Shown one piece after another: positions 8,218-47,850 of a stretch of 64,000 nucleotides of DNA. Origin of the DNA: Geobacter sp. DSM 9736. GTDB lineage: Bacteria > Desulfobacterota > Desulfuromonadia > Geobacterales > Geobacteraceae. Every line of letters begins with the position of its first letter. Within the stretch, counting starts at the first letter, position 1. Made by a program: the position numbers and the translations under genes. A model generated the notes under the pieces. It worked only from the letters and a program-made list of their open reading frames with translations, was not told the origin of the DNA and ran no database searches. Location: positions 1,922,501 to 1,986,500 of the forward strand of contig NZ_LT896716.1 of NCBI RefSeq assembly GCF_900187405.1, given 5' to 3'.

Positions 8218-11200
8218 ATGAAAATGCCACAGAAGAACATACTTCTTGCCGTTCTCATTCTTGCAGCTGCTGTTGCAACAACGGGCGGCCTGCTCCTCGA
8301 AAAGATACTCGACCTCGACGCGTACAAGAATACCATCATCGAGACGATGCAGAGGGAGCTGAAAAGGGAGGTTCGATACCGTTCCGCAGAGTTCTCCTGG
8401 CGGTTCGGCCCCTCTTTTACCTTTAAAGATGTGATGATAATGGAACGGGGAACAGCCAGACCATTTGTGGGGGCCAAGCGATTAACCTTCAAAATAGCTC
8501 TCCTTCCGCTACTCCAGCGGGAAGTCTCGCTAAAGGAACTCCTCCTCGATCAGCCGAACATGCACGTTGTCAGGGACAGGGAGGGAAACCTCAATTTCAG
8601 CGACCTCCTGGAACAGAAGCAGGGATCAGTTCCTTTCCATATCAATCGGTTGCGAATCCGAAATGGCGCCATCGGCTTTATAGACTACGCTGCTGCTCCG
8701 GAAGGGGTAGCAGTGGCACTTACAGATATCCACCTATCACTTGCCCATTTTGCCAGAGGTAAGCAATGCTCTTTCAAATTAAGTACGTTGATCGGAGACG
8801 AAAGAAATAAGGAACGGGTTACTGTGCAAGGATCGGCCAAGCTGGCATCAGTCGACAGGCCGCTGACTGAAACGGATTTCAACTTCCGGATAACCGGGAA
8901 AAACATTGAAGCCAGCCCTTACTGGCCCTACTACCGGCAGTATGTTCCCTTCCAGAAGGTCACCGGGCAACTGACGATGGATGCGGAATTCACAGGAAAG
9001 CTGGCATCGTTCACGTCCAGGGGTAATTTCGGGGTAAGGAATCTTTTCTTTAACTATCCTGAAGTCTTCCGCTCCGTTCTTACACCAAAGACGGTGCAGG
9101 CGGATTATCAGTTGCAGTTCAACTCGCGGGACCTTACCGTCAGTTCTCTCGACCTCAATGTTGACGGCCTGCAGGTCCATGGGAATTGCGCCCTTCGCGA
9201 TATCCCCAGCGGAGATCTTCGCATTACAGCCCGTGCCGGCATACTACCTTTTCGCCTTGAAGATTTCCGCCAGTATATCCCCTACGGCATCATAGTTACT
9301 GATACTGCCGAATTCATCGAGCGGCACATCAAAGGTGGGATATACCGGCTCGACGAAGGAGTGCTGGACGGAAGGGTCAGCCAGATTGCGCATATGGAAA
9401 GGGGAGAAAACTACAATGTCCTTTACGTTAGGGCTCGGGTTGAGAAGGGGCTACTGACCTTCGGTCGCGAAGTACCTCCCTTTAACCAGATCAGGGGGGA
9501 ACTTGAACTTCGCGGCAAAGATTTCAATCTGAACCGCATGTCCGGCAACTTCGGCTCCTCTCCCTTTACCCTTGAGGGGAAAATAACGGACTATCCCCTT
9601 GATCGCCCCTCCGGCTACCCTTTCAAAATGGTCATGACGCCGCACCAGGAAGAAGTGGCATGGCTGCTGGACCGCAAGAAAACGGGAAAACTCGTCTTCT
9701 CCGGGCCTTCCGTGCTGCATCTCTCCGGCGAAGGCTTCACTTCGGGGTACAACCTGGATGGAGACTGGGATCTGTCAAGTGCTGCCTTCAGCTACCCCAA
9801 CATCGTCAACAAGCCCGCCGGCAGAACGAGCAACCTTTCCTTCTTGGGCAGCATCTCGAAAGAGGAAATGAACCTGTCCAGGCTCAGTTTGAACCTTTCG
9901 CCACTCTCGCTCGCAGCCACAGCAAATCACAATTTCTCGGGCAAAGAGCGGTTCCTTTGCGAGCTCAAGACCAACCAATTCCTCATAAGTGAAATTGCTC
10001 CGATGCTCCCGAAGCTCTCAAAATATCAGCCAGCGGGAAAAGTCAGGGCTAGCATCCGGGGGGCCGGCAAGCCTGAAGATATTCACTGGTCAGGAGAGGT
10101 CTCGCTCACGGGAGCTTCTCTAAAGCCGTCGGCTAATATCAGCACCCTCAGCGGCATCACCGGTACGGTTCGCTTCAAGGACGAATCTCTGGAGTCATCT
10201 TACCTTACCACTCGGTTAGGTAATTCAGTCATCTCCGGGAAAGGCTCCTTGACTGGTTTCCGAAACCCGTCATTCTCAGTTGAGTTCTCTTCTCCACTTC
10301 TACATCTCTCCGATCTGGGTTTCAGCCTCCCCAAGGGCGGGGCAACCCTGACTAGCGTTTACGGGAACCTGTCGTTGAACGATAATAACCTGAAAATAAA
10401 TTCCCTCACTGCCAGCGCCGGCAATTCTTCTCTCTCAATAAAGGGAATGGTGCAAGACCTGCAGAATCCAACTGTCGAAGTGGCGGCAACGTCCCCCTAT
10501 CTGGACCTCGGCGACGTTCTTCCCCTCATGGAACTGAAATCGACAAAAACTGGGCCGGAACCGCCGACACCTCTTCGGGTAACGGCATCGTTATCAGCGG
10601 AAGCCGGGAAAGCAGGCCTGCATTCTTTCGAAAAATTGAAAGCCAAAGGGGTAGCGGAAGACAGCATTCTGTATCTGCAGTCATTGGAGAGTAATGCTTA
10701 CGGTGGGCGCATCACCGCCAAGGGAAGATTCGACTTCACCAGCAAACAGACACCCCGTTATCATGTCGGCTATTCGATAGAACGAATGTCTGCAGAGCGT
10801 CTGACGAAAGCTATCGGTGCGAGTAAGCAGGAAATTTCAGGAACGCTTTCGGCGTCGGGAGAATTGACGGCAAAAGGAGAAACAATCGCAGAGCTGAAAA
10901 AAACGGCTCTAGGTTCTGCACACCTCGAAATCGAGGATGGAGCACTCCGCCGTTTTGCCGTTTTATCCAAGGTTTTCTCAATACTCAACATTTCCCAGCT
11001 TTTCAAGGGCAGGCTGCCGGAGATGGTCTCGGGAGGCATGCCATACAACCGGATAACCGCTGACCTCGCAATAAGAGACGGCGTAGTGAGCAGTCAGGAC
11101 CTCTTCGTGGACAGCAATGCCATCAACATGTCGGCGGTGGGCAAGCTCGATGTTGTGCGGAATGAAATTGATGTGACCATCGGCGTTCAACCCTTGCAAA

Positions 11201-14088: not shown

Positions 14089-14149
14089 AAAGTCACCCTG
14101 GTGAATCCCCAACCTAACAAGGAGTTATACAATAACTTTCGACAAGCTA

Positions 14150-14175
14150 AAAAAAAACCGGCCGGAGCCGGTTCA
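14150..14175 (-). terminator. Terminator after the NlpC/P60 gene
   Basis: Minus strand AACCGGC-TCCG-GCCGGTT with nine T following, 19 bases after the stop of the LysM-NlpC/P60 gene. Confidence 0.85.
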
Positions 14176-14193
14176 TAAGGATATAGAGAAAAG

Positions 14194-15222
14194 CTAGTTA
14201 CTTGCCCCAAGACCCAGAGTATCGTTCTGGAGGATATCCCCCTCAGTCTCCTCTTCCACGCCAATCAGCAGGTCGTCGAACCTGAATTCATCGGGATTTA
14301 TCTTGCTGATCCTCTTTGCCCCCATATACCTGGAACGGTAGTAAGGAGTGTCGATGGAAGATACTACAACGCGACGGTCGCGTGAGGAGGCATGAATCAT
14401 CTTGTTTCCTCCCAGATATATTCCGACATGGGAGGCGTAAGGAGCATAGGTACGGAAGAAAACAAGATCCCCCTTCTGCAGGTCACCCAGCAGGACCCTG
14501 TTGCCTATTTCGAATTGCTCCCTTGCAGAACGGGGCAGCGTCACATCCAGTTCGCGGAAGACCTGCTGAACGAAGGCGGAACAATCGAGACCACTTCTGG
14601 TATTGCCTCCGAATCTGTACCGTGTGCCCAGAAAACCATATGCCGTGGTCTTGAGCAGCTTCACGTTGTCCGTCTTCAGTTCCAGGTCCTTCTTAAGCAC
14701 CACCTGCTGATCATCAGGATCGGGCTCGGTCAGCTCGGCAAGGCTCTGCTCATAGTCTTTTTCACTGAAGAGGTCGCTGTTCTTCAGGTAAATCTTTCTC
14801 GTCACCTTACGGGGTGCTTCTCCGGCAGGCTCCGCCTCCCTCAGTGCAAGCACCTGTCCCTGCTTTACCTTCTTTTTGCCCAAGTCATTCAGCCGTCTGA
14901 GTTCTGCAACCGATACCCCTGTCTTCCTCGCAATTTTGGTCAGATTATCCCCTTTTTTGACTTTGTATGTCAGAGATTTCTGATCCGCTACTGAGCGTTC
15001 CTCGGCAGCACGGGGAGGGATGACAAGCACCTGGCCTGCTTTGATTCGCTTGCTGACAAGGTTGTTGGCTGATTTGAGGTCGCTGACGGAGACGTGATAT
15101 TTTCTGGCGAGGGAGTAGAGGCTTTCGTTTTTTCGGACTTTGTGGGTTTTAGCGGCTAAGACTAGGGAAGGAAACGATACGACGAGCATGCATATAATAA
15201 TCAATCTTATGCATCTATGCAT
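14194..15222 (-). CDS. LysM-NlpC/P60 cell wall peptidase
   Basis: 342 aa secreted peptidoglycan hydrolase. Signal peptide (IRLIIICMLVVSFPSLVLA), then two LysM domains (about residues 27-70 and 82-125, each with YxVxxGDxLxxIA-type sequence), a linker, and an NlpC/P60 domain from about residue 195. Catalytic residues are visible: Cys in GLDCSAFVQQVF, His in ASHVGIYLGG, and a later His in MIHASSRDR. AGGAGGGG lies six bases before the ATG. It likely cleaves stem-peptide bonds in peptidoglycan turnover. Confidence 0.92.
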   Translation of the reverse strand: MHRCIRLIIICMLVVSFPSLVLAAKTHKVRKNESLYSLARKYHVSVSDLKSANNLVSKRIKAGQVLVIPPRAAEERSVADQKSLTYKVKKGDNLTKIARKTGVSVAELRRLNDLGKKKVKQGQVLALREAEPAGEAPRKVTRKIYLKNSDLFSEKDYEQSLAELTEPDPDDQQVVLKKDLELKTDNVKLLKTTAYGFLGTRYRFGGNTRSGLDCSAFVQQVFRELDVTLPRSAREQFEIGNRVLLGDLQKGDLVFFRTYAPYASHVGIYLGGNKMIHASSRDRRVVVSSIDTPYYRSRYMGAKRISKINPDEFRFDDLLIGVEEETEGDILQNDTLGLGASN

Positions 15223-15310
15223 ATTTCCCCTCCTTTGTTTTAAAAAATACAATGAATGGCGCTACTAATATAACAAAACAGCCTCTTTGTCAACCTTCAC
15301 GATTACCAGC

Positions 15311-16723
15311 TCAGCGTTTCGCTGCCGAAACCCGAACCAGGACCGGGGCCTGTCGAAGTATTCGGACCTGCGGAGAGGGTGGAACCAGCCCGACCTCCAC
15401 CCGAGAATCTCCGATAAAATTCTCAATATTCAGCTCTTCGGTATCAACCGCCGAGACTTGACGAAAAAAATGCGCCGGCCCTTCCAAAGTCACCTTCGCA
15501 GGCTCGATGCGAACCTTCTTCAAGTGAAAGTTGGAAGGCAACTTCCCTCTGGTTTTCAGCCGGACCGGCAAATCCCGGCGGACCTTTCTGTCAGTGATCA
15601 CCTTCACTGCCCCTGGACGTATTTCCGTGAGGGTCACCCCCAACGGCAGTTTTATGTCTTCTCCGTGTATAGGGACATGATTCGCCCCCTCCTTGACTCT
15701 CGCCAGATTGACATCAGCCACCAGATCAAGATGCTTGGGGGAGTCGATCAGGCTCGAAAAGAACTTCAGCCTCACCTCCACCTCTTCAGGTGTGCTCGTC
15801 ATGAAGGCGAGATTGTCAGGAAGGTTGTGAAATTTGATAGGTATTGTCATAGAGACGATACCACCCTGACGAGCCGTTATAACCGCCCAGCAGATTATCA
15901 CCAGAAGCACGATTGAAAGCTTCGGCAGAGGATCGCGCAGCAGCCTCTCCCGCACCGACACACTGACGGCCTCGGGGGCGGGGAGAGCAAGCAGCATGAC
16001 CAGCTTCTCGCTCAACTGTTCGGCGGTATGCACAGGCTGCAGCTCCCCTTCTACAGCAAGCGAGACCTCACCCCGCTCCTCGGACACGACAACCACGACG
16101 GCATCCGAACGCTCAGTAATGCCGATCGCCGCCCGATGCCTCGTTCCGTAATGATGTGGAAATTCCGCCTTGACCGAAAGAGGCAGATGGCATGACGCCT
16201 GCGTTATCCTTCCATCCGCTATGACGGCCGCCCCGTCATGAAGAGGCGTACCATTTCTGAAAATAGTGCCGAGAAGCTGAGGTGTGACGACACTGTCCAG
16301 GGGCACCCCGTGGAGGAGATATTCATCCAGGTGGTCCCGGCGCTGAAACACAAGGAGCGCACCGGTCCTTACAGATGCGAGGGAGAAAATTTCGGTCGAC
16401 AAAGCCATGAAATCGAGGCGCCCGCCATTTCCGGGCCGTTCGAACAGGTTGCTGAGAAGGCTGAATCGGTATAGCGCCTGCCGGATTTCGGTCTGAAAAA
16501 TCACAATTATGAGGACGAACAGAACCGTCCCGAGCTCCTGAAAGACCCAGCTCGTCATCAAAAGGCCAAGATTCTTGGTCACGACGTATATCAGCCCGAG
16601 GACAAGAAGACCGATGACTACCTGGAGCGCGCGCGTGTTCCTGAACCAGGTGTAGAGAAGATACACCAGAAAGCTCATGATAATGATGTCTGCGATATCC
16701 TGTGGACGAATGGCGGGAGACAC
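15311..16723 (-). CDS. Diadenylate cyclase fused to YbbR-like domains (CdaA-CdaR type)
   Basis: 470 aa. Three N-terminal membrane helices (about residues 10-28, 32-50, 64-78) and a DAC domain (about 100-255) follow CdaA closely; the catalytic motifs GTPLHDGAAV (Asp163-Ala165) and TRHRAAIG (195-197) are intact. After these comes a fourth membrane helix (267-284) and YbbR-type beta repeats to the C-terminus. In Firmicutes these are two proteins, the synthase CdaA and its regulator CdaR; here they are one chain. Predicted to make cyclic di-AMP from ATP. The GTG start has AAGGAG six bases upstream. Confidence 0.9.
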   Translation of the reverse strand: MSPAIRPQDIADIIIMSFLVYLLYTWFRNTRALQVVIGLLVLGLIYVVTKNLGLLMTSWVFQELGTVLFVLIIVIFQTEIRQALYRFSLLSNLFERPGNGGRLDFMALSTEIFSLASVRTGALLVFQRRDHLDEYLLHGVPLDSVVTPQLLGTIFRNGTPLHDGAAVIADGRITQASCHLPLSVKAEFPHHYGTRHRAAIGITERSDAVVVVVSEERGEVSLAVEGELQPVHTAEQLSEKLVMLLALPAPEAVSVSVRERLLRDPLPKLSIVLLVIICWAVITARQGGIVSMTIPIKFHNLPDNLAFMTSTPEEVEVRLKFFSSLIDSPKHLDLVADVNLARVKEGANHVPIHGEDIKLPLGVTLTEIRPGAVKVITDRKVRRDLPVRLKTRGKLPSNFHLKKVRIEPAKVTLEGPAHFFRQVSAVDTEELNIENFIGDSRVEVGLVPPSPQVRILRQAPVLVRVSAAKR

Positions 16724-17679: not shown

Positions 17680-17715
17680 AAAAAAACCCCACCTGTCATG
17701 GGTGGGGCTTTTTCT
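17680..17715. terminator. Bidirectional terminator between ubiE and the cytochrome operon
   Basis: CCCCACC-TGTCAT-GGGTGGGG with a run of A on one side and CTTTTT on the other, so it works for both convergent genes. Confidence 0.9.
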
Positions 17716-17737: not shown

Positions 17738-19246
17738 TCATGGACGGCTACCACCCGGAGCACTCAGCAGGTAGTTGATGGCTGCTGTCTTCTGGGCAGC
17801 AGTCAGAGACGAAGCGTTGATGGCCGCTTCGACATCGTTGTCGAGTATACCGTTATTGGACCAGTCTAAAGAATCGTAGATTAGTCGCTTAATGTAGAAG
17901 CGGTTGTGTGCGTAAGCTCCTGGATCATGAAGCACCATATTGAGGTTGAAAGCTGCCCCCATAGTGTTCCTTCCGGTATCGAAATTAGCCGGAGAGAACT
18001 TGGCCCACTTTGTAACCCGAGTACCCGCCCCGTTCGGTTGAGTAAAGAAGTAGGGATTTGAATCAAAAAAGTGGATATTTAGGACTGCCAACCTAGCTTT
18101 AAGCGCTTCGGTAGCCGCAGCAAGGCCGGCCTTCTCTGATTCAAGTTCGGCAGGAGTTGGGTTGCCTGCACCATGGCACTCGGCACAGGCCGTACTGAGA
18201 ACCGACGTTACGACGCCGTTAGCGTCTTTCTGGACAGGGAGAAATTCGTGACTCGTCGTGGTTTTCATATGACAGCCGACACATGGACCATCGCCGGTCG
18301 TCATCCCGACCTGATCATGCTGGTAGAAGGGGGGATTGTTATAACTGCGACCGGCATATTCGTAACCGCTAGCCGCATAGATAATGCCACCGGCAGTAAG
18401 GTAGTGGGAGTTTATAAAGTTAGTAGTGCCGGTGAAATTCAGGAATCCGGGGCTTTGCCTGATCGACGCTCCCGCCTCACGCCCCACATGACAGGTCAGA
18501 CATATGTTTGATTCACGTGCATCGGGATAATGGATAGACGTGACATTGGCGTATCGGGGGTTAGTAACCGCACCGACGGGTCTCCGCTCCCAGCTGTAAT
18601 CCGTGTGGCAGGTCTTGCAACCAAGAATTTCGTTTCGGCCCGTAAAAGTGGAGATCGTGACCCCGCCGGAATTGACATAGGTGACATATCCTGTGCTCGT
18701 ATGGCAGCGGACACACGGATTCCTAGTGGGCCAGTTAACGTTGTCCGTGAACGCCGGGCTGTTTATATCACCGTGGCCTGAATCGGTAAAATCTCTATTT
18801 ACCTGGATCACGGAGCTTGTGTCGTGGGGGTTGTGGCAGACACGGCATTGTTGAGCGTCCTGGGCACTGACGAACTGGGGCTGCCTGGCCGTCGTGAAGG
18901 TCGAGAAGTGCGGAGTGCCAAGACTTGTGACGGTATGACACTCAGCGCAAACAGTGTCGTTCGGGTTGTTCGTAATAGTGCCACCGTTGGGATGTCCCAT
19001 CGGCTTATGGCAGTCGGCGCAACTGGCACCGTTTTTGGTATTGTGGGCAGAGGCTCTCCATTCATCGGCAATCTGCACTCCGGTTACCGGCGAAATTTTG
19101 TTGTTGCCGTGACAACCGATGCAGGCTGCTGAAGCTCGGAACGACTCGGTTCCTCCGTCCCCAACTTCCCTGTTGTCACTGCCACAACCGGCTATGGCCA
19201 GAAAGGAAACAACAAGCCAATACATACTAAGGCGACTTTTCATCAT
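17738..19246 (-). CDS. Outer-membrane nonaheme cytochrome c lipoprotein (conduit 1)
   Basis: 502 aa. Signal peptide with lipobox LAIAGC (Cys21) and nine CxxCH heme sites: CIGCH, CADCH, CAECH, CRVCH, CVRCH, CKTCH, CLTCH, CVGCH and CAECH. After the hemes comes a heme-free tail with MGAAFN and AHNRFYIKRLIYD, shared with the paralogue at 21.4-23.1 kb. Third gene of a porin-octaheme-lipoprotein operon, the position of the outer-face cytochrome in porin-cytochrome conduits. Predicted to pass electrons out to minerals or other acceptors; substrate unknown. AAGGAGG precedes ATGATG. Confidence 0.88.
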   Translation of the reverse strand: MMKSRLSMYWLVVSFLAIAGCGSDNREVGDGGTESFRASAACIGCHGNNKISPVTGVQIADEWRASAHNTKNGASCADCHKPMGHPNGGTITNNPNDTVCAECHTVTSLGTPHFSTFTTARQPQFVSAQDAQQCRVCHNPHDTSSVIQVNRDFTDSGHGDINSPAFTDNVNWPTRNPCVRCHTSTGYVTYVNSGGVTISTFTGRNEILGCKTCHTDYSWERRPVGAVTNPRYANVTSIHYPDARESNICLTCHVGREAGASIRQSPGFLNFTGTTNFINSHYLTAGGIIYAASGYEYAGRSYNNPPFYQHDQVGMTTGDGPCVGCHMKTTTSHEFLPVQKDANGVVTSVLSTACAECHGAGNPTPAELESEKAGLAAATEALKARLAVLNIHFFDSNPYFFTQPNGAGTRVTKWAKFSPANFDTGRNTMGAAFNLNMVLHDPGAYAHNRFYIKRLIYDSLDWSNNGILDNDVEAAINASSLTAAQKTAAINYLLSAPGGSRP

Positions 19247-19267
19247 ACCCTTCCTCCTTTGAGGTAT

Positions 19268-19960
19268 TTATCTGAGTTCATGGCAGCGGCTACAGGCCCT
19301 GTCGCTTCGATCAAGAATGTTTCTTCCTTTGAAATTCTTAGGATGCGGACTAATCCCTGATCCCCCTTTCGATCTGGAACCATGACACCTTATGCACACA
19401 TCCCCCTCAGGATGACATGACTGGCAGAATTGGAGGTTACGACGCGCCTCGGAGGCGTGTTCGCTGCTCCAAATAAACGCTTGTGTGTTCCCGCTCCGCA
19501 AATGTGACTTAATCCTGAAAGAGCCTCTGGGGAATCGGCTGTGACATTCGTTGCAAAATTGCTGATCATGACAGCGGTAGCAAGTCTGTGGATTACTCAA
19601 AGCCTTTATTGGGTGAATGCTGACGAAATCGCTCCGGTGGCTTTTGGGAATGTAATCTCGCCCGTAATTCTGCGTCCTGAGATCCACATCGATCCCTCCC
19701 CCGAAATGGCAGTCGAGGCAGTATCCCTGACTGTGGCACTGAGCACAGTTTGCTCCGGCCTTGCTAGATAGAATCCGGTGGCTCCTCATCCAGTCAGCAT
19801 CGTGATTGGGGCTTACCCCTTCGGATTTATGACAATCATTGCATTCAACAATCTTCATAGAGCCATAGTCCTTGTGAGACTCTTTTTGGGCGAGTGCCTG
19901 ATGAACAAAGAGAGCCGACAGAAAGATCAGCATTGCAGCGAACAGCAGGTATTTCTTCAC
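19268..19960 (-). CDS. Periplasmic octaheme cytochrome c, OmaB-like (conduit 1)
   Basis: 230 aa. Cleavable signal peptide ending HQALAQ, then eight CxxCH sites: CNDCH, CAQCH, CLDCH, CYRCH, CNECH, CQSCH, CIRCH, CSRCH. A heme-free stretch YIPKSHRSDFVSIHPIKAL lies between sites 3 and 4. Length and heme count match the OmaB/OmaC periplasmic cytochromes of Geobacter conduits, which feed electrons through the porin. GTG start after GGGGGG, 15 bases behind the porin stop. The paralogue at 23.1-23.8 kb keeps every heme site. Confidence 0.88.
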   Translation of the reverse strand: MKKYLLFAAMLIFLSALFVHQALAQKESHKDYGSMKIVECNDCHKSEGVSPNHDADWMRSHRILSSKAGANCAQCHSQGYCLDCHFGGGIDVDLRTQNYGRDYIPKSHRSDFVSIHPIKALSNPQTCYRCHDQQFCNECHSRFPRGSFRIKSHLRSGNTQAFIWSSEHASEARRNLQFCQSCHPEGDVCIRCHGSRSKGGSGISPHPKNFKGRNILDRSDRACSRCHELR

Positions 19961-19975
19961 AGTGTACCCCCCTTT

Positions 19976-21187
19976 CTAGAAATCATAATCAAGGATAAAG
20001 CGCCCTTGTAGGTTTTCATGGTAACGCGCGTTCACATCGTCCTCGATGCGCAATGACGCAGCCAGGTTTTTTGCCATGCGGTATTTCCCACCAATCCAAT
20101 ATTTTCTGGCAATCTCATCATTGGCCAGACTGTCACGCTGGTAGACATCGAACGTGAATCCACCTGCAGCCTGCAGGTTCCTGGTAAAATCATAGGCAGC
20201 ATCCACGATGATCCCGTTGGTACTGCCGAAATAGCCCTGTCGGTTGTCATATTCAACGCTTACAAGGAGCGGGTCGATGGGGCGAAGGCTGCAACCGGCC
20301 TGATACACGTGCCCTAGCGCATCGTCACCAAAGTCTTCGTAGGTATATCCAAGATTGACTGCAAAGAGATCGCTAAACGTGTAATCGATCCGGAAAACCC
20401 CCTCCTGGTAACGATTGACGGCAAACACTGAATAGATTGAGGTCGCATCGAAGGTCGGGTAACTCTGATACCACTCTCCCGTGAGCACCAGGTTGGCTAT
20501 CGGATAATATTTCACTCCACCGAGGACCTCATTGAAAACTTCGGTAATTGCATCAAAGCGTGCATTACCGTACATCTGGAGATTATTAAGAATATACTGT
20601 TTAAGCGAAGCACCTAAAATATCACGCGAAATATCGTTTTCGTCCCACTTCCGAAGCCAACTGACTTCAAGATCTGTTTTTCGAAAGCCGACAAGCCGGG
20701 CGGCAGTACCGACAGCATAATCCCCTCCCTGACTGAGCTCGCCTCGCAAGCCAAAAATTACATCCCGCCCGCCCAAGACAGTCAGCGCTACGGGGCCTAT
20801 ATTCTTCAGATCGACCATGCCGCCGTCAACAATTGCGCTCCCTGCGGAAAGGTTAATAAACTGCCGGCCAAGGCGTACATCGATTTTGTCGTAAATATTA
20901 TTGAGGTCACCGTAGAGGTAATAAAGTCGTCCGTTCAGACCTTCACCGTTATTCAGGTCGGCTGTACCTCTTCCATACCCCTGAATAGAAAACTTTCCAG
21001 CCTGATCAATGTTTGTGATAGACAGTCGAAGATACTGAGCCAGCTCTACCTGCCGGCGGTCGATAAAATCGTTGTTGAACCAGAGTGCCTGTGTCGAGCT
21101 TCTGCCACTCACCGCGGCAGACCAGCAGGGAGTAGCGCCCAGCAGGCTGACTGCCATGATGATGCACAGCAATCGTGTCATCCGCAT
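19976..21187 (-). CDS. Outer-membrane beta-barrel porin of a porin-cytochrome conduit (conduit 1)
   Basis: 403 aa. Signal peptide ending PCWSA, then alternating amphipathic strands throughout (for example RLYYLYGDLNNIYDKIDVRLGR, FRIDYTFSDLFAVNLGYTY) and a C-terminal DYDF, the terminal-Phe signal for barrel assembly. No heme sites. It is much shorter than OmbB (over 700 aa) and nearer in size to the porins of other Geobacter conduits. First gene of the operon; GGAGG lies eight bases before ATG 21187 and a sigma-70 promoter lies 54 bases further up. Confidence 0.82.
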   Translation of the reverse strand: MRMTRLLCIIMAVSLLGATPCWSAAVSGRSSTQALWFNNDFIDRRQVELAQYLRLSITNIDQAGKFSIQGYGRGTADLNNGEGLNGRLYYLYGDLNNIYDKIDVRLGRQFINLSAGSAIVDGGMVDLKNIGPVALTVLGGRDVIFGLRGELSQGGDYAVGTAARLVGFRKTDLEVSWLRKWDENDISRDILGASLKQYILNNLQMYGNARFDAITEVFNEVLGGVKYYPIANLVLTGEWYQSYPTFDATSIYSVFAVNRYQEGVFRIDYTFSDLFAVNLGYTYEDFGDDALGHVYQAGCSLRPIDPLLVSVEYDNRQGYFGSTNGIIVDAAYDFTRNLQAAGGFTFDVYQRDSLANDEIARKYWIGGKYRMAKNLAASLRIEDDVNARYHENLQGRFILDYDF

Positions 21188-21240
21188 CTGGCTGACCTCC
21201 TTTCGCATTCGCACGCCAATTTATTTTCTTACTGCCGACA

Positions 21241-21268
21241 ATTGTAAGAGGGGAATGTTGGATGTCAA
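21241..21268 (-). promoter_or_regulatory. Sigma-70 promoter of conduit operon 1
   Basis: Minus strand TTGACA, 16 bases, TACAAT: a perfect -35 and a five-of-six -10. The start would be near 21233, giving a leader of about 46 bases to the porin ATG. Confidence 0.8.
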
Positions 21269-21352
21269 TAGATGGGCAGAAGGAATATTTTCTAACTAAA
21301 GAGGGTGGGATAGAGCTTCCTGAACCTGGCTCAAGGAATTAGGAACCGCGGG

Positions 21353-21382
21353 CAAAAAAAAGCCCCAAATTTCTTTGGGGCT
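21353..21382 (-). terminator. Terminator of conduit operon 2
   Basis: Minus strand AGCCCCAAA-GAAA-TTTGGGGCT followed by nine T, 34 bases after the stop of the second lipoprotein cytochrome. It shows the two conduit sets are separate transcription units. Confidence 0.9.
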
Positions 21383-21415
21383 AGATACTGCATTAAAGAG
21401 ACTTAGCTGTGAGTA

Positions 21416-23092
21416 TTAGCGTCTGTACCACTGGTTCGGAACACTGCGGTATCTCAGCAGTTCGGATTTAAGGGAACTAATCGAGACATCAGTGGCCACC
21501 CCTGATTTGGGGTCTGTGAAGGTAAAGGTCGGCTTTGATGTAGAATAGGCCGAGAATGAAATAATGCTGTTCGGGTCGGCCTGGCCATTAGTTCCACCCG
21601 CAAGGTTGTTAGCGGAAGAGAATGAATAAGTGTTGGACCCGGTCTGCAGGTATTGGATAGCATCGGTGATGAGGCGCTTGGCGAAGGTCCGGTTATGTGC
21701 ATGTGCTCCGCCCTCGGCTGCTACGAATTTGTAGTTGAAAGCAGCCCCCATGTTCTTGGCACCGGTCCCACCAGTAGGTCCGACAGTGGTCCAGTTTTTG
21801 ATGGCAGTCGTGCCGCCATCAGCAGTGTAGAAGTAAGGATGCGCAGAACCGTAGAAGATCCCTTTCTGGGCCAACTCATACTTGTAGAAGTCGAGGAAAC
21901 GGGCAAATATAGCCTTTTGATGCTCGTTTTCTTCCAGAATCGTTGGTTCGCCTAGGGCAGGAGTATGACAACCGTAGCAGCCGCCTGCTCCATTTGTCAG
22001 GTCTGCGACTTCAAATGGATCGAACGTATGCGTGCTGTTGCCAACGGGGCCCAAGTGACATGCAACGCAGGCGCCATTTGTCCCGGTGCCGTTGTAGTTG
22101 CCTATACCGATTTGCGAATGGCTATTAGTGCTCTGATACTTCGCATTGGAGGTGTAGTAACGGAACCCTGACTTGGAGAACAACATAGCTGCAGCAGGGA
22201 AGTAATGCGGGTTTTTGAAGCTCGCATTGGTAAAATTGGTAATGGAAGTTACGCTATCTCCGCTCTCACGCCCAGAGTGGCAGGGAATGCAGAGGTTTGA
22301 TGCTCCGGAATCAACATACTCTACCCTTGCGCCATTATACTTGTATGATGCAGTGAAAGCATCGGCAGGGCGGAGGTTATTTGCACTGAACTCAGAGGTG
22401 GAATGGCAGGCTTTGCATGCGATAACCTCGCGGGTCATGTCGCCAGCCGCAGCGAATCCTGTGGTGGGAGCAGTTTCAAACTCCGAATTGGCAAATCTTA
22501 TGTAACCGGTCGTGGTATGACAACGGCTGCACGCTGCGCGGGAGTCGATTCCGAAAGACTCTTCAGCGAATGCAAGAGCATTCACGTTACCGTGCCCTTC
22601 TGCCCAGTCTTCATGTATCTGGGTCGATACGGGGCTGTGAGCGCTGTGGCAGAAGGTACAATCTACGTTAGGAGTCACGTAGCTTGCGGGAGAAGCTTCA
22701 TCAACACCGGGTTTTGCCGTTGTGTAGTGGGCGGCGTCAAGAGGAGCATTCTCCTGGTGGCAGGTAAAGCAGCCACCGCCAAATTCTGCCGGGTTAGCAT
22801 AGGGCAGGGGTCCGACACCGAAATGCATCGAGCCGCCGCCGTGGCACCCCTGACAGTCGGCCGTATTCTGGCTCAACCTGTAATGCAGGGACTGCTCTAC
22901 CTGAGTACGGATTACCTGGCCGCTGACAGGATCGGTCTGACCTGCATGACATGTAGTAGCAAAGCATGATGACGGTGATACCCTTTCAGCAACGACTGCA
23001 CCGTTTTTGTTGTCGGTGCCGCAGCCGCCAAGTGCTGCCGCTACGACGACTGTAGCTGTTGCTGTCACAAACGATTGCAAAGTTTTCCTCAT
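21416..23092 (-). CDS. Outer-membrane nonaheme cytochrome c lipoprotein with one CX4CH site (conduit 2)
   Basis: 558 aa. Lipobox ALGGC (Cys24). Heme sites in order: CFATTCH (a CX4CH site), then CQGCH, CFTCH, CTFCH, CSRCH, CKACH, CIPCH, CVACH and CYGCH. The first site aligns with CIGCH of the conduit 1 paralogue. It also shares HPYFYT, NMGAAFN and AHNRTFAKRLITD with it, and adds about 55 C-terminal residues rich in Ser/Thr. GGGAGG lies six bases before the ATG at 23092; an earlier in-frame start would fall in the octaheme gene. Predicted outer-face cytochrome of the second conduit. Confidence 0.88.
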   Translation of the reverse strand: MRKTLQSFVTATATVVVAAALGGCGTDNKNGAVVAERVSPSSCFATTCHAGQTDPVSGQVIRTQVEQSLHYRLSQNTADCQGCHGGGSMHFGVGPLPYANPAEFGGGCFTCHQENAPLDAAHYTTAKPGVDEASPASYVTPNVDCTFCHSAHSPVSTQIHEDWAEGHGNVNALAFAEESFGIDSRAACSRCHTTTGYIRFANSEFETAPTTGFAAAGDMTREVIACKACHSTSEFSANNLRPADAFTASYKYNGARVEYVDSGASNLCIPCHSGRESGDSVTSITNFTNASFKNPHYFPAAAMLFSKSGFRYYTSNAKYQSTNSHSQIGIGNYNGTGTNGACVACHLGPVGNSTHTFDPFEVADLTNGAGGCYGCHTPALGEPTILEENEHQKAIFARFLDFYKYELAQKGIFYGSAHPYFYTADGGTTAIKNWTTVGPTGGTGAKNMGAAFNYKFVAAEGGAHAHNRTFAKRLITDAIQYLQTGSNTYSFSSANNLAGGTNGQADPNSIISFSAYSTSKPTFTFTDPKSGVATDVSISSLKSELLRYRSVPNQWYRR

Positions 23093-23109
23093 CTTTTCCT
23101 CCCTTTGGT

Positions 23110-23808
23110 TTAGTAGGTCGTGTGGCATTTAACGCAGACCTTGCTACCTGCTTTGTTTTTGAAATTTCCACTTATGGACTTCCAGTTCTTCGGATGCGGA
23201 TTGGTTCTCCCTTGCGCATGGCACTGGATGCAAACATCGCCTTGTGGGTGACAGCTCTGGCATGACTGCAGGTTGCGCCTGGCTTCGCGAGCGTGTTCAA
23301 GTGTGATAACGGCATTTTGACTGTATGCCTGGTTGTTAAGCCCGTTCATCATGTGCGACTTGATACGCATGTTCCCTTTCGGGAAGCGGTCATGACAGGC
23401 GTTGCAGAACTTCTGGTCATGGCAGCGGTAGCAGGTCTGCGGATTGTCGAGTGCCTTTATCGGGTGAATTGTGATGAAATCACTTCGATGGCTCTTCGGG
23501 ATATAATCCCTGCCGAAGTTGCTGACGCTCAGGTCGGCTTCGATTCCACCCCCCTGATGACAATCGAGACAGAATGACTGTTGATGGCACTGACCGCAGT
23601 TATTGCCGGCTTTGCTGGCAAGGGAGCGATGGCTGCGAATCCAGTCGGAATCGTGATTGGGCGAAACGCCTTCCGACTTGTGGCAGCTGTTGCAATCAGT
23701 TATTTTAGAGTCCGCGTATTCCTTGTGTGGCTGCTTCTGGGCCGTCGCCTGATTGACGTAAAGGACGGTCATCATCAGCAGCATGCCTGCAAACAACAGT
23801 TTCCTCAC
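23110..23808 (-). CDS. Periplasmic octaheme cytochrome c, OmaB-like (conduit 2)
   Basis: 232 aa with signal peptide ending NQATAQ and eight CxxCH sites: CNSCH, CGQCH, CLDCH, CYRCH, CNACH, CQSCH, CIQCH, CVKCH. It aligns end to end with the conduit 1 protein, including CHKSEGVSPNHD, YIPKSHRSDF and IHPIKAL. The GTG start and the AAAGGGGGGT in front of it are also conserved between the copies. Predicted to relay electrons from periplasmic carriers into the conduit. Confidence 0.88.
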   Translation of the reverse strand: MRKLLFAGMLLMMTVLYVNQATAQKQPHKEYADSKITDCNSCHKSEGVSPNHDSDWIRSHRSLASKAGNNCGQCHQQSFCLDCHQGGGIEADLSVSNFGRDYIPKSHRSDFITIHPIKALDNPQTCYRCHDQKFCNACHDRFPKGNMRIKSHMMNGLNNQAYSQNAVITLEHAREARRNLQSCQSCHPQGDVCIQCHAQGRTNPHPKNWKSISGNFKNKAGSKVCVKCHTTY

Positions 23809-23823
23809 AATGGCACCCCCTTT

Positions 23824-25041
23824 CTAAAAGTCATAGTCGAACGTCACACGTCCGGATACATTGCTGCTGTAACGCTCATTGACATCGTTCTGAATGCGGC
23901 CGGAGAGGGCCATGTTATTGGCAATCTTGTATTTGCCACCCGCCCAGTAGCGACGGGCAATCTCGTCACCTGTCAAAGCATCCCGCTCGTACACATCATA
24001 GTTAAACCCTGCAGCAACTTGTGCCACCTTGGTGATGTCGTACGCTGCATCGATGATGACGCCATCGAGGCTGCCGTAGTACCCGGAGCGCTTGTCATAC
24101 TCCAGGTTGACCCTGAGAGGCTCGATCGGCCGCACCCCTACCCCCGCGAAGTAAACATCCGCATGGGCGCCGTCACCATATCCCTGCCTGTTGTACCCAC
24201 CATTGACGGCGACTTTGTCATTAATGGTGTAGTCAACCCTGAAAACGCCCTCAGCATACCGATTTACGGCAAAGACGGAGTAAATTGAGGTGGTGTCGAA
24301 CTGAGGATAGCTCTGGAAATACTCGGCAGTGAGAATCAGGTCGGATGTCGGGTAATACCGTACCCCCGCCTGAACTTCATTGAACGTTTCCGAGGGGAGA
24401 TCGTAGCGTGCATTCCCGTATACCTGCAGATTGTTGAACAGGTACTGTTTTCCCATCACCCCGATAATATCGCGGGAGATGTCGCCGCCATCCCATTTGC
24501 GGAACCAGCTTACTTCCAGATCTGTCTTCTGGAAACCGGTCAGGTAAGCACCGAGACCGAGAACGGTATTCGTTGCATCACCGATTTCACCGTTGAGTCC
24601 GAAAACTACATCTCGTCCGCCAAGTACCGTGAAGGCAACGGGGCCAACGTTTTTGAGATCGACCTGTGCACCGTCCATTATGGCACTGCCTGCAGCCAGG
24701 TTCACAAACTGGCGTCCGGCCCGCACGTCCAGTTTGTCATAGAGATCCCGATATTCGCCATACAGGTAGTAGAGTCGACCATTCAACCCTTCGCCGTTAG
24801 AGAGGTCCTGGGAAGCCCTTCCATAGCCGTGAATGGAGAACTTCCCTGCCTTGTCGATATTGGTGATCGACAGCCGAAGATACTCGGCCAACTCCGTCTG
24901 ACGCTGATCGTTCAGCCACTCATTGTTGAAAGAGAGAAACTGCGTGGAACTTCTACCATGTATTTCTGCCGACCAGGCCGTCGTCGTTGACGCCAACGAG
25001 GCCATGAGGAGAAACATTCGTGCAGCGGATTTAATCCCCAT
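23824..25041 (-). CDS. Outer-membrane beta-barrel porin of a porin-cytochrome conduit (conduit 2)
   Basis: 405 aa paralogue of the porin at 20-21.2 kb. Signal peptide ending TAWSA; GRSSTQFLSFNN, RLYYLYGEYRDLYDKLDVR and VLGGRDVVFGL match the first copy; the C-terminus is again DYDF. No hemes. AGGAGG lies seven bases before ATG 25041. First gene of the second conduit operon. Confidence 0.82.
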   Translation of the reverse strand: MGIKSAARMFLLMASLASTTTAWSAEIHGRSSTQFLSFNNEWLNDQRQTELAEYLRLSITNIDKAGKFSIHGYGRASQDLSNGEGLNGRLYYLYGEYRDLYDKLDVRAGRQFVNLAAGSAIMDGAQVDLKNVGPVAFTVLGGRDVVFGLNGEIGDATNTVLGLGAYLTGFQKTDLEVSWFRKWDGGDISRDIIGVMGKQYLFNNLQVYGNARYDLPSETFNEVQAGVRYYPTSDLILTAEYFQSYPQFDTTSIYSVFAVNRYAEGVFRVDYTINDKVAVNGGYNRQGYGDGAHADVYFAGVGVRPIEPLRVNLEYDKRSGYYGSLDGVIIDAAYDITKVAQVAAGFNYDVYERDALTGDEIARRYWAGGKYKIANNMALSGRIQNDVNERYSSNVSGRVTFDYDF

Positions 25042-25217
25042 CAAACAACCTCCTTTCTCGCTGAATCGTAACTGTGGCAACGCATTTGAACCAAACCGTC
25101 CCCCTTTCTTGGAATTATTTTTCGAATCCTTTTCCAGATTCCGTCCTGGATTGGAAATGAATCTTTCCGAAGCCCTTTTACGATATCGGCTAGTAGCGCT
25201 AGGGGTTTAGAAAAAAC

Positions 25218-25236
25218 TACAGAAAATATTTCTGTA
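25218..25236. repeat. Perfect 19-base palindrome, possible operator
   Basis: TACAGAAA-ATA-TTTCTGTA, two perfect 8-base arms around three bases. It lies about 180 bases upstream of the second porin. A related core (AGAAAATATT) lies just upstream of the -35 of conduit operon 1, near 21284-21296. Confidence 0.5.
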
Positions 25237-25321
25237 CAATATCATTGAGGAAAATCCGTGCCACCAGGTAGTGGTTCAACAACATGAAGAGGCGGAAACT
25301 TGTACCCGCTTTGTAACCCTC

Positions 25322-25337
25322 AGCAAGTAACATGCCC
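25322..25337 (-). promoter_or_regulatory. Candidate sigma-54 promoter of conduit operon 2
   Basis: Minus strand GGGCATGTTACTTGCT against the consensus TGGCACGNNNNTTGCW. The invariant GG and GC are 10 bases apart, the -12 half is perfect and the -24 half is 5 of 7. The leader to the porin ATG would be about 270 bases. Confidence 0.4.
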
Positions 25338-25599
25338 CAAGCTTTTCTAATCGCTGGTATTTAAGGGAGGGAATAGGAACGCCACGCGCTGATAGGCTGG
25401 AGAGGATTATGCGCCTAAAACGGCGCCGGGGAAATTATTCAAATCTAATCTTTATCGAAGCTTATTTTGACGAATCAAAAAACCGGAAGTCAATTTACCG
25501 ACACCATTTCAGGAGAGAGCGTTCACAAGAGCTACTTTTGGGTTGGCACGGAGGGGTTTGTTACATTTTTTGCATTTCTTGCTGTCTAAGTGCCGCAGG

Positions 25600-26436
25600 T
25601 CAACGTTCTTGCTTCATTCTGAGCGCCTCGTCATAAACCTCGCTTCGCGGGCTCCCCGTTTCGAGGGCAACCCGCCGCACGGCATCTTTAACCGACAGCC
25701 CTTCCGTCTCGATGTACCGGAGGAGCAGGTCCGCAACCGCTGGCCCCTCGGCGGGGGCCGCTTCCTCTGCGGGCATTACGAGGAGCACCACCTCTCCCCT
25801 CACCGTCCCTTTCTGAAAACGCTCACGTAAGGTGGAGATCGTACCTCGCGCAAACTCCTCGTGGATCTTGGTCAGCTCACGGGCAACAACCGCCTGCCGG
25901 TCTCCGTACAGCTCAAACAGATCTAGAAGCGTGTCCGCAAGACGGTTTGGAGATTCGTAGAAGATTAGGACGCGGCGCTCACCCGCAACGGCGGCGAGCT
26001 TTTCGCGGCGCCTGCTTCGCCGGTTGGGAAGGAACCCTTCGAAGACGAAGGCATCGGTCGGAAGACCTGCCGCGGACAGCGCGGCGATGGCGGCACAGGC
26101 ACCGGGAACCGGCACCACAGGAATCTGTGCTTCTACCGCATCCCGGACCAACTGGTAGCCTGGGTCGGAGATACAGGGGGTTCCGGCATCGGAGATGAGG
26201 GCGACCGACAGCCCTTCCCTCAACCGGTCGAGGATGTAGTCCCCCTTTAATGTCTTGTTATGGTCGAAATATGATGTAAGGGGCCGGGAAATGCCATAGT
26301 GGGCGAGGAGCTTACGGGAGTGGCGGGTATCTTCGGCTGCTATGAGGTCAGCTTCCCGCAGAATGCGTATGGCGCGATACGTAATATCTTCGAGATTACC
26401 GATCGGGGTAGCAACGATATAGAGGGTACCGGGCAT
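25600..26436 (-). CDS. rsmI: 16S rRNA 2'-O-ribose C1402 methyltransferase
   Basis: 278 aa. The N-terminal GTLYIVATPIGNLEDITYRA and AEDTRHSRKLL are RsmI signatures; the SAM-binding SDAGTPCISDPG and PVPGACAAIAALSAAG are intact, and the C-terminal SVKDAVRRVALETGSPRSEVY helix is typical. RsmI modifies the ribosomal decoding centre. It follows nadE by 11 bases, so the three genes from 28.1 kb down are probably one operon. Confidence 0.95.
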   Translation of the reverse strand: MPGTLYIVATPIGNLEDITYRAIRILREADLIAAEDTRHSRKLLAHYGISRPLTSYFDHNKTLKGDYILDRLREGLSVALISDAGTPCISDPGYQLVRDAVEAQIPVVPVPGACAAIAALSAAGLPTDAFVFEGFLPNRRSRRREKLAAVAGERRVLIFYESPNRLADTLLDLFELYGDRQAVVARELTKIHEEFARGTISTLRERFQKGTVRGEVVLLVMPAEEAAPAEGPAVADLLLRYIETEGLSVKDAVRRVALETGSPRSEVYDEALRMKQER

Positions 26437-47567: not shown

Positions 47568-47850
47568 GCAATAAAAAAGCCTTCACCCCGACAAAGGGGC
47601 GAAGGCTTAAAGCTTCCGCGGTACCACCCTTATTCGTCCCCGCCGAGCTTGCGGCACGCGGGAACCTCATTCTACCCGTTACGTGGGCCGACGTCTCCCC
47701 CTACACAAGGTCATTGCCTGTTCAGGGAAGCGGCTCAGAGGCGAGTTCATCCTTCCTTCCACCGGTTTGCAGCGACCACCGGCTCTCTGTGTCCCGCAGG
47801 GGACGGAAAGGTGGAGGACTACTACTCCTCGTCACAGCCTTTGCATCATG
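47568..47850 (-). promoter_or_regulatory. T-box riboswitch (leucine) of leuA
   Basis: The 439-base gap upstream of leuA holds a complete T-box. Stem I begins with GAGGAGTAGTAG and contains AGAGAGCCGG. The specifier loop is GAACTCGCC with CTC (Leu) at 47743-47745. The T-box AGGGTGGTACCGCG lies at 47617-47630. The terminator AAGCCTTCGCCCC...GGGGTGAAGGCTT lies at 47573-47608, with six T. Uncharged tRNA-Leu would pair with the T-box and prevent termination, so leuA is expressed on leucine starvation. Confidence 0.95.

Follow-up and report, generated by a model that had tools for sequence, protein, structure and literature searches.

The 64,000-nucleotide stretch of Geobacter sp. DSM 9736 DNA analyzed here (contig NZ_LT896716.1, positions 1,922,501 to 1,986,500; hereafter the window) contains two adjacent sets of three genes, or trios, on the minus strand between positions 25041 and 17738. 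We consider it highly likely that each trio encodes a porin-cytochrome (Pcc) conduit of the OmbB-OmaB-Omc kind and that the two are old paralogues that have stayed next to each other, are probably transcribed separately, and end in unlike surface cytochromes. This reading is based on gene content, heme motifs, candidate ligand histidines, homology, phylogeny, and shared flanks.

Two adjacent three-gene sets

The six open reading frames (ORFs), read from the sequence, follow the order barrel, octaheme cytochrome, and lipoprotein, repeated twice head to tail.

23824..25041, minus strand: B1, barrel, OmbB/OmbG-like; 405 residues, signal-like N terminus, C-terminal DYDF, ATG at 25041
23110..23808, minus strand: A1, octaheme periplasmic cytochrome, OmaB/OmaG-like; GTG start, 8 CXXCH
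21416..23092, minus strand: C1, nonaheme lipoprotein; lipobox LGGC, 8 CXXCH plus one CX4CH (first heme site)
19976..21187, minus strand: B2, barrel; 403 residues counted from the likely ATG at 21187, C-terminal DYDF
19268..19960, minus strand: A2, octaheme periplasmic cytochrome; GTG start, 8 CXXCH, 61% identity with A1
17738..19246, minus strand: C2, nonaheme lipoprotein; lipobox IAGC, 9 CXXCH, likely ATG at 19246

A preliminary description of this DNA had reported two complete three-gene sets with the same order and similar spacing, and the ORFs confirmed this: the gap between the barrel and octaheme genes is 15 bp both for B1-A1 and for B2-A2, and the gap between the octaheme and lipoprotein genes is 17 bp in trio 1 (counted from 23092) and 21 bp in trio 2. 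Barrels ending in DYDF and octaheme and nonaheme proteins were found in each set, as described, and all eight octaheme sites are kept, with 8 CXXCH motifs in A1 and in A2. The conserved GTG starts that had also been proposed are limited to the octaheme genes, the likely start codon of the barrel and lipoprotein genes being ATG. The longest ORF of C1 begins at 23128, and the likelier start is an internal ATG (23092), which is preceded by GGGAGGA. The sequence AAAGGAGG precedes the likely ATG of B1 and of B2 alike (25041 and 21187).

BLASTP comparison of copy 1 with copy 2 revealed 63% identity for the barrels (E 0.0), 61% for the octahemes (E 2e-109), and 31% for the lipoproteins (E 1e-54), indicating that the likeness of the trios is not due to chance. 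The nine heme sites of C1 and C2 match one to one when aligned, and the difference in heme type is confined to the first site, which is CFATTCH in C1 and CIGCH in C2. The divergence of the lipoproteins noted in the preliminary description was therefore borne out for overall identity, but in heme-site type it concerns just one of nine sites.

Conservation in the family

The barrel sample comprised 78 rows from 71 fetched loci, including the two from the window, after exclusion of ORFs of less than 380 residues; many further class-level barrel matches lie outside these 71 loci. A barrel match at E 1e-100 or better was present in 30 of the 48 genomes searched in the family, and 8 of the 48 have two full-length strong barrels. 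At the class level, some barrel match at E 0.001 or better, in many cases weak, was present in 156 of 277 genomes. The genome of DSM 9736 holds only two barrels of the window family at E ≤ 0.001. The median barrel ORF is ~405 residues long in the 64 ingroup loci. Thus, the small size of the barrels (only ~400 residues), which had been singled out earlier, was correct as a measurement (403 to 405 residues) but is the norm for a family with a strong homologue in most of the genomes searched. Barrels of this size are ordinary also because published Pcc porins are much smaller than MtrB (PMC4245776).

An 8- or 9-heme gene adjoins the barrel in 61 of the 64 ingroup loci (8-heme, 51; 9-heme, 10); the gene is cut in one locus, and none is close in two. 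A 10-heme gene comes next at all 14 outgroup loci. The gap between the barrel and cytochrome genes is exactly 15 bp in 50 of the 76 cases measured, the window's own two being outside this count. All eight heme motifs of the octaheme protein, plus eight additional histidines, are present, in register, in 60/60 ingroup rows, which matches the requirement of eight bis-histidine hemes. Gene order, spacing, and heme sites, together with this conservation, the prevalence of 8- and 9-heme genes behind ingroup barrels, and the published make-up of Pcc and PccG (see below), support the assignment of the trios as two complete OmbB-OmaB-type conduits, as first proposed.

Two other loci contain related gene sets. 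In the same genome (G000:C1:1729250-1732672, locus L006), another conduit-like trio encodes a barrel of 436 residues that matches no Pfam model, a small cytochrome with five hemes, and a protein resembling a lipoprotein, in which CXXCH sites occur along with heme sites of longer spacing; by description alone, this trio is reminiscent of the GM18_3461 type reported in PMC4245776. In locus L059 (G003:C23, 11414-16895), a window-family barrel without its own octaheme is followed by a second barrel ORF and by 5-heme and 15-heme ORFs like those of L006.

Comparison with known conduits and proposed function

The published Pcc complex, encoded in the order omb-oma-omc, is described as combining a porin of 18 to 22 strands with OmaB, which has eight hemes, and a surface cytochrome (PMC4245776). 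In both window trios, the barrel gene adjoins genes for a periplasmic and an outer-membrane multiheme cytochrome, and the periplasmic cytochromes A1 and A2 are octahemes. C1 and C2 have nine heme sites and do not correspond to the OmcB-like 12-heme outer cytochrome; in the 60 ingroup rows, the outer cytochrome has nine hemes in 26 and twelve in 16, so that possession of twelve hemes is no strict marker of the system. A close published arrangement is described for Geobacter metallireducens, in which PccF (porin, 9-heme, and 10-heme proteins) is adjacent to PccG (porin, 8-heme, and 9-heme proteins) (PMC10989804). PccG (Gmet_0911-0913) and PccF (Gmet_0908-0910) are likewise two adjacent trios, and the 8/9 make-up of PccG is that of both window trios, whereas PccF, compared by description, differs in both cytochromes, with 9 hemes in the periplasmic and 10 in the outer one.

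The pair of Geobacter sulfurreducens, termed a nearly identical tandem duplication (PMC5585712), shares gene order, the 8-heme periplasmic cytochrome, and the tandem layout with the window (PMC4589669, PMC5585712). According to these accounts, its porins and octahemes are 100% identical, in contrast to 61 to 63% for the window cores (barrel plus octaheme); its outer cytochromes, each with 12 hemes, share 71% identity, in contrast to 31% for the 9-heme window lipoproteins; and each trio has a TetR-type regulator, whereas in the window no regulator gene was noted from rsmI to ubiE. Adjacent pcc clusters that, as in the window, are less than 64% identical have been reported in G. daltonii and G. 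uraniireducens (Shi et al. 2014, PMC4245776). The window trios probably represent a known kind of system, of which the two copies are probably old relatives.

MtrCAB of Shewanella works alike, with a barrel, a periplasmic multiheme wire, and a surface multiheme lipoprotein. MtrB-type porins are described as having 28 predicted strands and MtrA as having 10 hemes (PMC4245776), whereas the window octahemes have 8 hemes and neither B1 nor B2 matched any Pfam or NCBIfam model at E values up to 1. Scores against the DmsE-family decaheme model were 15.2 bits for A1 (cut-off, 192.2), with no match for A2. C2 matched PF22113 (MtrC/MtrF domains II/IV) with 46.3 bits (cut-off, 30) over only ~55 residues, which we take as a shared multiheme character. 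Membership in the Mtr group was rejected, since the barrels match no model and the octahemes have 8 rather than 10 hemes. Single-sequence searches at E values up to 1 detected no relative of the barrel or octaheme among solved structures; profile searches were negative for the barrel and gave one weak match (E 0.33) for the octaheme. The comparison of C2 with solved structures also gave one weak match (E 0.01).

From these data we infer how the proteins might assemble, in which direction electrons would flow, that transcription would be separate, and that acceptors may differ. Periplasmic carriers would reduce the octaheme protein seated in the outer-membrane barrel, which it would plug from the periplasmic side, serving as an eight-heme wire. 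Electrons would hop along the eight hemes through the outer membrane to the nonaheme lipoprotein, which, on the outer face, would hand them to the acceptor. The isolated G. sulfurreducens complex has been reported to transfer electrons across liposomes (PMC4589669, citing Liu 2014). Deletions of PccF and PccG are described as having overlapping effects on Fe(III) reduction, anode reduction, and interspecies transfer (PMC11389400), and it is plausible, by analogy with PccF and PccG, that the two outer ends of the window pair prefer different acceptors. Use of the conduits mainly for electron uptake or for exchange with partner cells, instead of metal reduction, would fit the report of Pcc clusters in organisms that reduce neither solid Fe(III) nor solid Mn(IV) (PMC4245776); we consider it improbable, as the characterized Geobacter homologues are described as acting outward, on Fe(III), anodes, and partners (PMC11389400), and nothing in the window marks a direction.

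Origin of the pair

Phylogenetic analysis was based on concatenated barrel and octaheme sequences in 64 rows, corresponding to 60 of the 64 ingroup and 4 of the 14 outgroup rows. The ingroup rows left out were G032_5353 and G003_11414 (no adjacent octaheme ORF), G001_2740 (cut), and G007b_9523 (identical core). In this tree, the core of trio 1 clusters with first-copy cores from four genomes of another genus (g7; support, 98/91), and the core of trio 2 branches close to the ingroup base and has no near relatives. B1 is 76 to 77% identical to the first-copy barrels of the g7 genomes, against 63% to B2.

The preliminary description had presented the trios as a tandem duplication. As an event within this lineage, this was not supported: pairing of the copies with distant loci in phylogenies had been named beforehand as a refutation, and the trees largely separated the copies. 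Forcing the window cores to be sisters costs 80.2 log units (P value of the approximately unbiased test [p-AU], 0.000545), and sisterhood was also rejected by the barrel alone (p-AU, 0.0014) and weakly by the lipoprotein (p-AU, 0.0376). The octaheme alone leaves the sisterhood of A1 and A2 unrejected (p-AU, 0.201). A recent lineage-specific duplication followed by fast divergence of the lipoproteins would account for the adjacency of the trios and for their similar order and spacing, it is compatible with the octaheme tree, and a duplication of the same kind has been accepted for ombB/ombC of G. sulfurreducens (PMC4589669). It is nevertheless largely refuted by the core, barrel, and lipoprotein tests and by the closer identity of B1 to the g7 barrels than to B2, and we regard it as very improbable. 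Nor was recent conversion between the window copies detected: no 100-bp stretch exceeds 77% identity, and the copies have no near-identical patch.

An old duplication, preceding the split of the genera, is the likely origin of the pair, and the presence of homologous cores side by side in several genera fits it. The alternative that the two trios are not old partners, trio 2 having arrived later from another lineage and landed alongside trio 1, is in our view unlikely. The core of trio 2 has no firm place in the tree, as such an arrival would have it, and C2 clusters with the lipoproteins of G004, G212, and G261, two of which belong to family f4 (support, 99/99). Against it, no close donor core is known, the top identity of the B2 barrel being 64% (G004); the four g7 genomes carry a second core downstream of the first, in the same order and on one contig; and a tree in which trio 2 was constrained to the PccF-like rows with nine hemes was better, by 2.26 log units, than that from the free search (p-AU, 0.605), A2 itself having eight hemes and not nine. 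The latter two observations make the PccF side a slight favorite for the core of trio 2, although placements with the G003/G004 clade (P = 0.338) or with the large PccG-like clade (P = 0.363) are likewise unrejected. The second trios of the g7 genomes differ from trio 2, which is of the 8/9 type, in having a 9-heme homologue of the octaheme and a lipoprotein with CX3-4CH sites, and the two g7 trios are ~1.5 to 1.8 kb apart with another gene between them, in contrast to the 228-bp gap of the window.

Divergence and exchange of the surface lipoproteins

The nonaheme lipoproteins were compared in 25 rows picked for nine heme sites, so that the conservation of 9 of 9 sites in this set is partly circular; one wrongly picked protein (second locus of G033) was removed by hand. 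Among the 300 pairs of this set, 56 have barrels that are 60 to 65% identical, and their lipoproteins are on average 37.2% identical (range, 26.0 to 63.7%). The corresponding value for the window pair is 31.7%. The divergence of C1 and C2 is therefore typical of the family and not special to the window pair. The earlier view of a conserved core with a diverged surface lipoprotein was supported (63 and 61% versus 31%), except that this divergence is no more than usual. The 25 proteins have eight invariant histidines outside the motifs, one fewer than their nine hemes. One heme may therefore be without a conserved histidine, its distal ligand being variable or open.

The type of outer cytochrome was mapped on the core tree for 42 of the 60 ingroup rows (26 nine-heme and 16 twelve-heme); the exclusion of 18 rows with 6, 8, 10, or 11 hemes removed nearly all PccF-like rows. 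The nine- or twelve-heme type changes 13 times on this tree, compared with a mean of 13.1 (range, 9 to 16) in 200 shuffles, 119 of which gave 13 changes or fewer; some of the changes may be heme gain or loss instead of replacement. When the outgroup was included and the length limit was tighter, as in an earlier version of the test, 14 changes were counted. Lipoprotein and core trees also conflict: the lipoproteins of G004 and G212, grouped with C2 as mentioned above, are sisters, and the corresponding cores are far apart. Such conflicts indicate that lipoproteins move between lineages. In G007 (L068/L069, contig C2), a 2.19-kb barrel-octaheme block is 99.5% identical between two loci whose lipoproteins share only 39.7% identity over 537 aligned positions. 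In G206:C24 (L101), the first ~400 bp of two tandem barrel genes (8998-10212 and 14119-15333) are nearly identical and the rest is ~70% identical, a pattern as gene conversion would leave.

Across the family, sequence comparison thus points to a pattern of conserved cores combined with surface cytochromes that can be exchanged. Replacement of the outer cytochrome has been stated qualitatively by Jimenez Otero et al. (PMC6148476, section 19). On the basis of the random distribution of lipoprotein types on the core tree, the G007 block, the G206 barrels, and the G004/G212 conflict, we tentatively propose, as a possibility that we hold to be somewhat doubtful, that tandem pcc arrays act as exchange cassettes in which recombination keeps or homogenizes the core and surface cytochromes are swapped freely between lineages. 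The window pair would then be the old, un-homogenized state of such an array.

Genomic site and transcription signals

The pair is flanked in the window by genes for UbiE and CdaA downstream and for RsmI and NadE upstream. In G047, which has a single trio, of the nine-heme type, both sides of the trio match these flanks. Of the 71 fetched loci, 8 show the RsmI side and 4 the UbiE side, family f3 included, many of the loci being too short to show both. In G007, a trio on the RsmI side (one locus) and a trio on the UbiE side (the other) are ~51 kb apart, where the window has one site, as though a pair had been pried apart. The paralogous trios would thus have been retained side by side at a rsmI-nadE/ubiE site that relatives also use.

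Three candidate signals border the trios.

21361..21382, minus strand: intrinsic-terminator-like hairpin; 9-bp stem plus T-run, 33 bases past the C1 stop
21241..21268, minus strand: promoter-like TTGACA-16-TACAAT; 11/12 matches, in the 228-bp gap before B2
17688..17702, minus strand: terminator-like hairpin plus T-run just past C2; overlaps a plus-strand one (17687-17707) after ubiE

The promoter-like match ends ~53 bases ahead of the likely ATG of B2, and only four 11/12 matches exist on both strands of the entire 64-kb window, one of them being that in the 228-bp gap. Because a putative terminator and an 11/12 promoter match lie between the trios, these are likely transcribed separately, as two units. 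Terminator-like sites are not in excess in the region (12 versus 9.0 in shuffles; standard deviation, 2.8). Loose matches to sigma-54 promoters were uninformative (35 in the window versus 30.3 expected).

Riboswitches are expected near Geobacter cytochrome genes. The search of positions 20900-25800 gave no convincing match, and only a T-box was detected in the whole window at the gathering threshold; this leader, at 47592-47844 on the minus strand, scored 113 bits. No regulator gene was seen in the window between rsmI and ubiE. At locus L042 (4103-4696), a TetR/AefR-type regulator gene lies directly upstream of the first barrel gene, recalling OrfR/OrfS. At locus L045 of a g7 genome (9534-10673), a gene for a DUF3108 protein (E 6.8e-26), without a counterpart in the window, lies between the trios. 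ORFs of similar size, matched by size and position alone, occupy the corresponding position in L042, L047, and L059 and follow a lipoprotein gene in L101.

Several of the results weigh against the interpretation of the pair as two old paralogous Pcc conduits. The barrel model of B1 is poor (mean predicted local distance difference test score [pLDDT], 55; predicted template modeling score, 0.45; ~22 strands counted), as is the octaheme model (pLDDT, 40). Searching folds with the barrel model returned generic porins, ushers, and receptors among the matches listed (50 of 873). The Pcc name is founded on architecture, heme counts, and published descriptions, not on direct alignment with OmbB, OmaB, and Gmet_0908-0913. 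The octaheme tree and the several placements open to trio 2 (see above) add to these points. The sister of C1 is the lipoprotein of G188, from another family (96/82), though C1 lies with g7, indicating that C1 does not simply follow its core. Finally, promoter-like sites are not in excess in the region (8 versus 7.8 in shuffles).

Implications

The trees correct the tempting reading of the pair as a recent duplication with specialized outer ends, and they bear on the inference, published in PMC4245776, that adjacent pairs less than 64% identical are unlikely to derive from duplication. The mapping of lipoprotein types puts a number on a qualitative idea, since the type of outer cytochrome changes on the core tree about as freely as shuffled labels. 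With one kind of core and two dissimilar surface ends, a natural pair like this lends itself to testing what determines acceptor specificity. If tandem pcc arrays do act as exchange cassettes, they would let a lineage change its range of electron acceptors without rebuilding the membrane conduit.

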